Assembly (NCBI RefSeq): GCF_032854445.1
Contig: NC_088302.1
Location: forward strand, 48,266,046 to 48,330,045
DNA: 64,000 nt
Direction of reading: 5' to 3'
Source of the DNA: Liolophura sinensis
Taxonomy: Eukaryota; Mollusca; Polyplacophora; Chitonida; Chitonidae
Shown here: positions 38,401 to 41,400 of the stretch, piece by piece
Position numbering within the stretch: the stretch's first letter is position 1
Layout: each line of letters opens with the position of its first letter
The notes under the pieces: generated by a model
What the model saw: the letters and a program-made list of their open reading frames with translations, nothing else
What the model was told of the DNA's origin: nothing
Databases searched by the model: none
Made by a program: the position numbers and the translations under genes

Positions 38401-41400
38401 ATACACAGATGTATGGTGTCAGTAAACTCATATATCGTCATATAACCCAACATGAGGATTATTTGCACCACATATTTGCGTATCCTATCACTGAGTAACC
38501 GCATAATGAATTTATCCTGCTAAGACCCATCAGTTGAGTGCAGAAAACCAATGTATAGGTGAATCACTTGAGCGATGTGACCATTGTATGGACAACCAAA
38601 CGAAGGGAAATAACCTACTAAGGAGACACATTTGATGTCACCTGCAGGATTTGAGAATGTATCTGTACCCCATGTTGTTTTTCCAGGGAAAGGTTGAGTA
38701 TTTTGCCTGATGTGGGATAATGAATGTTACACATATGTCTTGTCCCCTGTACCCAGTTAACCTTAACTAGTATTCAGCTGAACATACCCACAGCAGTTTT
38801 ATCACCCACATCTTCAACCATATTGTAGAGTTCTTTGGGTGGTCAGATCACAAGGTGAGCCCTCAGCTGGACATTACCTGAACAAGCACATCAGTGTATC
38901 AGGGTCCAGTGTTGTGCTAAGCTTTATCATTGGGTGGTCAGATCACAAGGTGAGCCCTCAGCTGAACATTACCTGAACAAGCACATCACTGTGTCAGGGT
39001 CCAGTCTTGTGCTAAGCTTAATCTTTGGCTGATCAGATCACAAGATGAGCCCTCAGCTGGACATTACCTGAACAAGCACATCACTGTGTCAGGGTCCAGT
39101 CTTGTGCTAAGCTTTATCATTGGGTGGTCAGATCACAAGGTGAGCCCTCAGCTGGACATTACCTGAACAAGAACATCACTGTGTCAGGGTCCAGTCTTGT
39201 GCTAAGCTCTGTCTTCATCATTGTGATCTGGAGGATACACACGGTGTATATTTAAGACATATAATGAACTGGCAGCACAGGTAAATTAGGGCAAAATTCA
39301 TGTCAGTGATCCCAGTAACTTTGGTATATACACATACATAACACATGTACATGTATGCTTACGTATTCGTATGTTTCCATATTGATCATGACTTGTGGGC
39401 TTCAGATGCCGCGGGGGGTTAGCACGCCACAATGACCCAGGAGCCTCTCACCAATGTGGTCGCTGTGAGGTGAAGTCCAGCTCATGCTGGCTTCCTCTCA
39501 GACTGTCAGTGGGAAGGTCTTCCGGCAACCTCCGGATGGTCATGGGTTTCCCCCAGGCTCTGTCTGGTTTCCTCCCACCATAATGCTGGCCACCATTGTG
39601 TAAGTGTAATATTCTTGAGAACAGCATAAAACACCCATCAAATAAATAAATAATTTGATCATGACTTAATTGTGATGTCAAATCCTAACAGGAGTGAACG
39701 TTTTGATGATGTGTATTAAAAGTGACAGGAGATGCCATAGGTACCTTGCATTTATCACCAAGAGATTAAAACCAGCTAGAGTATTGCTGTATTTTGGTCT
39801 GTCTGTATATTTGCAAGTTAGGATTAACCACATAAGACATTATGAAAAGATGATAATGGGAAGATATGAACTACATGTAGTTATATGTTGTCAGCTGTGA
39901 TGTTTTATTGTTTTACCCACCAGGGAGGTGTTGTCCTTCTCTTCCTCACCCTGTGTCTACAGTCAGGCTATAACAGTGCTGCTAAGAAACTCTCTGTGGA
40001 CGTGGGAGGAGCGAAGAGACTTCATGCCCTCTCCACCCTCGTCTCTTCCTTCATTCTCTTCCCCTGGGCAATGTTTATATACTTCACAAGGGAGGTAAGT
40101 CAGCCATCCATTTGACCTGAAGTATTACATTTGAAACATGGCAGTAATTTGCACGATAGGATGTGTGTTGTGAAGTGATTTGGAGGTTTATGTTGTATTT
40201 AGCAACCTCTGTGGTAAAGTAAAACATGTAACTACGTAAGTGGCAGTGTTAAATTACACAAAGCTTTCTAAACATTTCATTTTGGAAAGGACTCAAAAGC
40301 CTCAACATCTTGTCAGACCAATATATATAGTTTCGTCCCACCCTAGACATCCACGGCTATTTAATCCAGATGACTGAAGGATTTTTATAGCCAGCACAGT
40401 TATTCTGACTTTAGAGTTACTTGTTACTTCTTATGCTTTTCAGAGTGAAATCGAGTCCTGGACATCAATGATTATCCCCCTTGGCCTGGTGGTGTTTTCC
40501 TTGCTGGTGGTGGACTTCTATGTAGAGGCTGTGGCTATCAACCACCTGCAGCCCCAGAAGACGGCAAAGTACGGAGCATATGCTATCTTGGTCAGTGCCT
40601 TGTTCCTGGGGCTAAGCTGGAATCACCCTCTGATGACTCAGATCACAACGATGAACAAACTACAGGAGATCATCACTGAGGACCATGTCCTGTCGGGAGG
40701 GGTCATCTTCAGTGTGGGGGCCTTCATGTTAGGTGAGGCAGCATCTTGGGAGCCATGATAATGTGTGCCCGATTATAGGTTAGGCATCATTATAATAAAC
40801 TGGGGAAATCTGTGGAGCCATATTGGATTCAGGATGGTGTTAATACCGTATCCCTGGCTAGGTGTTTTTATCAGGATCCCTTTTGTCTCTGGCACAGTGT
40901 TAATAGATAGGTAGTAGAAATTGCCATCCTGCACCTTTTTTGAGCATTGTACCATTGCACCCTGCCCGTTTTGAGTTCTCTGTTATACTGCTATTGTACA
41001 GGGTTTGTGTGGGTTTCTTTCACCATGAGTTTCTCCTTGGCCCGGTTTCCTCTCGCCATAATTCTCATTGCTATTTAATATATCATGTCATGCTAAAAGT
41101 GAAATATTCTCAAGATTCCAGAATAAGTGAATGTTGATTTTGAGTATTAAAGGGAAATGTGGTCGACTTGTATAAAAGTTTCTGATACGCTGTGTTTTAA
41201 CTTGAGCCAATCATTAAATATCTGTGACATTCTGATCCTTGCTGTAAGGGTATTTTTACTGCGACTGTTTTGTCCTCTGTTTCAGCCACTCATATACTTG
41301 TCAGCCCTAACAAGGTGGGGAAAGGGAGTTTCATTGGCTACTCATCAGGTGGTTTACCCCTGTACAGCTTCACTGGGGATTACTTACAGAGAACCTCTCA

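Follow-up and report, generated by a model that had tools for sequence, protein, structure and literature searches.

A tandem array of splice donors at an exon end of SLC30A5 in Liolophura sinensis, probably a tolerated minisatellite of the mirage kind

Minisatellites that carry copies of exon/intron boundaries have been described in amphioxus genes, in 5′ and 3′ cases, and were called 'mirages' (PMC3087553). According to the available excerpt of that report, AG or GT is present in many, not all, of the copies in lancelet globin genes, and data on Adh3 together with RT-PCR on globins suggest that regular splicing is undisturbed by the mirages. Its authors allow for a cryptic use of the copies and suggest that mirages could give rise to new introns (PMC3087553). 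In the portion available of another report, Adh and troponin C are cited as mirages without aberrant mRNA, and the authors infer the same for PGBD5 (PMC3902484). At the level of titles and abstract beginnings, we found no boundary minisatellite described in molluscs, which is not a claim that none has been.

We report here on such an array in a 64,000-nucleotide window of Liolophura sinensis (contig NC_088302.1), the whole stretch of DNA that was analysed. A preliminary description of this window had pointed to a four-copy, 95-bp array of an SLC30A5 exon end and its GTGAGC donor, with an acceptor array as its counterpart in the neighbouring gene, IPO11.

The SLC30A5 exon and its array

The gene was modelled with an approximate human ZnT5 query. 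Ordered tblastn matches to residues 28-757 of the query span 32407 to 46088; a weak off-locus match lies at 5595, and there are other weak ones. In the model, which does not reach the gene start, 15 exons join into an open frame of 748 codons. The exon next to the array was first seen as a weak tblastn match (38777-38854, 23.9 bits, E 1.2, 41% identity), and was selected by spliced alignment, its order and frame fitting those of the stronger exons on either side. Its boundaries are tattcag/CTGAA for the acceptor and ACAAG/gtgagc for the donor, in phase 0, with introns of 1508 nt before and 1069 nt after it. The preceding exon, which starts at 37182, was extended by eye to 37269, where the donor (AATGTATCC) has the lowest score among the 34 modelled donors, and a candidate exon at 38188-38251 was dropped as spurious. 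Two SLC30A5 ORFs contain the Pfam cation-efflux domain PF01545; a PDB search with one ORF gave no match. Judged by this domain and by the ZnT5 N-terminal region, which was also found, the gene carrying the array is SLC30A5, and the assignment of gene, exon and donor in the preliminary description is borne out. Exons and copies are as follows.

38778..38854, plus strand: SLC30A5 (ZnT5) exon, 77 nt, phase 0, ending in ...FFGWSDHK (weak tblastn match; order, frame, spliced alignment)
39924..40094, plus strand: following SLC30A5 exon (GGVVLL...), after the 1069-nt intron (tblastn, spliced alignment)
38835..38929, plus strand: copy 1 of the 95-bp unit, with 20 exon bases, the authentic donor AAG/GTGAGC at 38854/38855 and 75 intron bases (TRF, copy alignment)
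38930..39024, plus strand: copy 2, decoy donor AAG/GTGAGC at 38949/38950
39025..39119, plus strand: copy 3, AAGATGAGC in place of the donor, exon-derived part altered at two positions
39120..39214, plus strand: copy 4, decoy donor AAG/GTGAGC at 39139/39140; similarity peters out at about 39208

TRF reported the array at 38835-39208, with a period of 95, 3.9 copies and 94% matches. Each unit consists of 20 exon and 75 intron bases, with the donor at the start of the intron part, so that the repeat lies across the exon/intron boundary. It begins with TTGGGTGGTCAGATCACAAG, the final 20 bases of the exon; the 18 bases given earlier for this exon end reflect another choice of where to cut the unit. 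Any two of the four copies have 5-7 differences in 95 positions. The donor 9-mer AAGGTGAGC is the same at 38854, 38949 and 39139, while copy 3 has AAGATGAGC in its place at 39044: the GT is lost and the sequence reads ATGAGC. The splice signal is thus retained in copies 1, 2 and 4, and both the four-copy structure and the lost donor of copy 3 were confirmed by TRF and pairwise copy comparison. The three private changes of copy 3 all fall within its first 21 positions, a clustering noticed post hoc. In the modelled transcript, coding proceeds through the boundary-side copy, and the 748-codon frame uses donor 1. No further blastn match to the array was found in the window at E 0.001, and there was one match among the best candidates in the 609-Mb assembly.

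A SINE-like element, which we take to be of a molluscan type, lies at 39380-39660; AAATAAATAAATAA stands close to the end of the element, and blastn gave 14 more matches to it in the window.

Consequences of the extra donors and choice among them

Donor 2 would give an exon of 172 nt and donor 4 one of 362 nt, instead of the authentic 77 nt; the expected additions of 95 and 285 bp are therefore correct. Either read-through adds VSPQLDIT and then a stop, the ninth added codon being a TGA, in agreement with the nine codons announced.

38879..38881, plus strand: in-frame TGA that would stop every read-through beyond the authentic donor

With donors 2 and 4 the modelled protein ends at residue 187, nine exons remaining, while the frame is open with donor 1. 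The Pfam cation-efflux matches lie 3′ of the premature stop, so the stop does precede the cation-efflux (CDF) core, as had been stated. The wording 'NTR-free' for that core is confused: the NTR domain found in the window is near 53 kb, next to ADAMTS-type domains and outside SLC30A5. Transcripts using donor 2 or 4 are predicted to be removed by nonsense-mediated decay.

Donors and acceptors were scored with approximate weights. Each of the three array donors scores 7.16, in a window where 7 plus-strand donor-like sites reach at least 7 in 64 kb. The authentic donor ranks 5th among the 34 modelled donors, and the decoys are equal to it. The score of copy 3 is meaningless, because the scoring skips positions +1/+2. 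In one fold of 38700-39300, the unpaired probability was 0.09 for donor 4, and 0.30 and 0.31 for donors 1 and 2.

Which of these identical donors would be chosen can be approached from the human data of Carranza and colleagues (PMC9225289). In the available excerpt, the switch to exon definition occurs at introns of about 250 nt, and where introns are long and the donors near-equal, splicing favours the upstream one. This choice was exclusive in five human minigenes that carried two identical strong donors. Some 60% of human events, in which donor strength is unmatched, favour the downstream donor, fitting an older rule of intron proximity, and weakened donors in larger exons of minigenes led preferentially to exon skipping (PMC9225289). 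Both introns flanking the 77-nt exon (1508 and 1069 nt) exceed the switch length, and in the SLC30A5 model the frame is kept by the upstream donor. By this rule, which comes from human cells and not from this animal, the authentic donor is predicted to win.

Leakage to decoys identical to the real donor is nevertheless plausible. The array may thus be a source of low-level noise, a small constant share of transcripts using donor 2 or 4, which would be degraded, mildly costly and unregulated. The strength and identity of the decoys, and the premature stop that follows them, fit such a noise, but the comparable minigenes that used their upstream donor exclusively (PMC9225289, available excerpt) speak against it, and we hold it possible but doubtful. 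It is a sub-case of a tolerated array, and its probability is a part of the one given below for that reading.

Arrays at splice boundaries in the window

The IPO11 array lies on the other strand. Modelled IPO11 runs opposite to SLC30A5, from 29043 to 9856; the two genes lie side by side and diverge, 3354 bases separating the first modelled exon of one from that of the other (29049-32404). The IPO11 model includes faulty exons with stops, and the models lack a few real exons.

16318..16699, minus strand: IPO11 acceptor array, 76-bp unit, first exon base 16356, four upstream copies keeping AG (TRF; the stretch past 16645 was found separately)

Upstream of the acceptor of IPO11 exon 16356-16164 there are tandem copies at 16432, 16508, 16584 and 16670, and the counterpart that had been described in the neighbouring gene is indeed there. 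On the crude scale, the authentic site scores 4.7 and the four copies 3.5 to 4.7. A second acceptor-like AG is found in three of the units (16390, 16466 and 16542, scores 3.8 to 4.3). The three copies that were read, at 16432, 16508 and 16584, hit a stop after 13 codons. By the exon-definition rule, it is the exon-side acceptor that would be chosen here.

Stretches of 40 bases centred on the modelled boundaries were compared, ungapped, with 1.5 kb on each side, a copy being defined by at least 75% identity. Six of the 76 modelled boundaries were left out as unreliable, leaving 34 donors and 36 acceptors. Local copies were found at 2 of these 70 boundaries, namely the SLC30A5 and IPO11 arrays. 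Among random positions of the same region, 300 of 4000 had a local copy. This first control was dominated by a 1.6-kb satellite (17735-19342, 68-bp unit, 23.8 copies, flanked by modelled IPO11 exons at 19451 and 17472), and the control was therefore repeated without it: 96 of 3000 random positions had a copy, equal to 2.2 per 70. Similarly, 2 of nine arrays picked by hand from the TRF output (period of at least 15, between 9.85 and 46.1 kb) overlap a boundary, for 2.7 expected. The window contains 13 arrays of period at least 20, covering 6.3% of it, and 20 stretches of 10 kb from the same contig (200 kb) contain 46 such arrays, covering 9.3%. We conclude that, over 70 boundaries and nine arrays, there is no enrichment of arrays at splice boundaries relative to random positions. 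Given this chance rate and a repeat-rich contig, two arrays in neighbouring genes are expected and unremarkable, and the significance that their pairing had seemed to imply is not supported.

A 43-bp minisatellite with CAGGTGAGT cores was also observed on the minus strand at 59980-60560, in the intron after a TSP1 exon of the ADAMTS-type region. Of the 16 minus-strand donor-like sites that score at least 7 in the 64 kb, seven fall within 59987-60468 and one more is the TSP1 exon's own donor, at about 60696. This minisatellite is not a mirage, because its units, compared by eye, are unlike the exon end; it is possibly a cluster of U1-binding sites.

Interpretation and comparison with known systems

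We give a probability of about 85% to the reading that the SLC30A5 array is a tolerated mirage-type minisatellite, whose decoy donors are silent or rarely used. As the array itself shows, a 95-bp segment across the exon/intron boundary was tandemly duplicated into the intron. The duplication probably arose by slippage or unequal exchange at a short TTG common to the unit edges. The exon-side copy would remain the working donor, because exon definition over the 77-nt exon should favour, by the human data, the donor nearest the acceptor; donors 2 and 4 would for this reason be silent or rarely used. Any transcripts made from them are predicted to meet the premature stop and to undergo nonsense-mediated decay. 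Under little selection, the extra copies would drift, the GT being already gone from copy 3.

A working switch, in which use of donors 2 and 4 would produce mRNA targeted to decay and so tune the amount of ZnT5, perhaps by repeat number, is improbable. It can call on the identical 9-mers of donors 1, 2 and 4, on their score of 7.16, where 7 plus-strand sites of the 64 kb reach at least 7, and on the fact that the extended forms are nonsense transcripts. Against it, the human exon-definition data predict donor 1 (PMC9225289), regular splicing is reported for the lancelet mirages in the excerpts available (PMC3087553, PMC3902484), one of the three extra copies has lost its donor, and arrays coincide with boundaries at the chance rate. 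The wider proposal that donor copy number sets the share of SLC30A5 lost to nonsense decay or to an in-frame cassette at 39005-39139, with repeat-length alleles tuning the transporter, is in our view very improbable.

That cassette is one of two candidates for an exon born in the array.

39005..39139, plus strand: hypothetical cassette exon in the array, 135 nt, open, in frame, weak acceptor (0.5)
39017-39139, plus strand: second open candidate cassette exon with a length that is a multiple of three, 123 nt, acceptor -0.6

The first would add 45 residues in frame, with the WSDHK end repeated. Sixteen acceptor-donor pairs in the array were tried: 10 contain in-frame stops and 6 are open, two of the six having lengths (135 and 123 nt) divisible by three. 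The available excerpt of PMC3902484 mentions an exon that was predicted, though unconfirmed, in similar repeats of a lancelet. However, the acceptor scores of 0.5 and -0.6 lie below the whole range of the 14 acceptors in the SLC30A5 model (1.7 to 6.3), and stronger acceptor-like sites yield exons with stops: three of them score 2.2 to 2.3, above the weak acceptor (1.7) of exon 38778-38854 itself. We regard a pseudo-exon within the array as unlikely, and see hardly any chance that a cassette exon was born there.

It is scarcely credible that the copies, or their number, were produced by misassembly: tandem repeats are error-prone, and repeat numbers differ between two lancelet assemblies (PMC3902484, available excerpt), but the 5-7 differences between copies mean that they are not identical duplicates, the locus is a single one on a 58-Mb contig (best candidates of the assembly search), and arrays are plentiful elsewhere in the same genome.

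The array is real and ordinary, a new example of the known mirage kind, and probably has no function. Its interest is that of a natural version of a textbook experiment, with identical donors side by side in one intron and an acceptor array next door. If arrays cover 6-9% of the genome, boundary duplications would be common, and splicing would cope with them routinely.

Among the described systems, insofar as the available excerpts allow comparison, the locus resembles variable internal tandem repeats that alter human gene structure, in that a minisatellite has expanded within a gene (PMC2812944); in the human case paralogues differ in structure, whereas here there is one SLC30A5 locus, with its modelled frame intact. 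It also resembles intron gain by AGGT duplication, the SLC30A5 unit holding an AGGT that is tandemly duplicated (PMC4974935), but copies 2-4 sit within an existing intron. Nothing points to a new intron bounded by two copies: the copied exon ends, scored crudely as acceptors, reach -2.2 to -2.6, against 1.7 to 6.3 for the 14 acceptors of the SLC30A5 model. The closest likeness is to the amphioxus mirages of Adh3, BflGb6, BflGb9, troponin C and PGBD5: boundary copies run into the intron, and the splice signal is partly kept. The differences are the gene, SLC30A5, the host, a mollusc instead of a lancelet, and the source, the array being known here from the sequence of one assembly alone. The SLC30A5 array lends itself to testing the exon-definition rule, and is not a new system.
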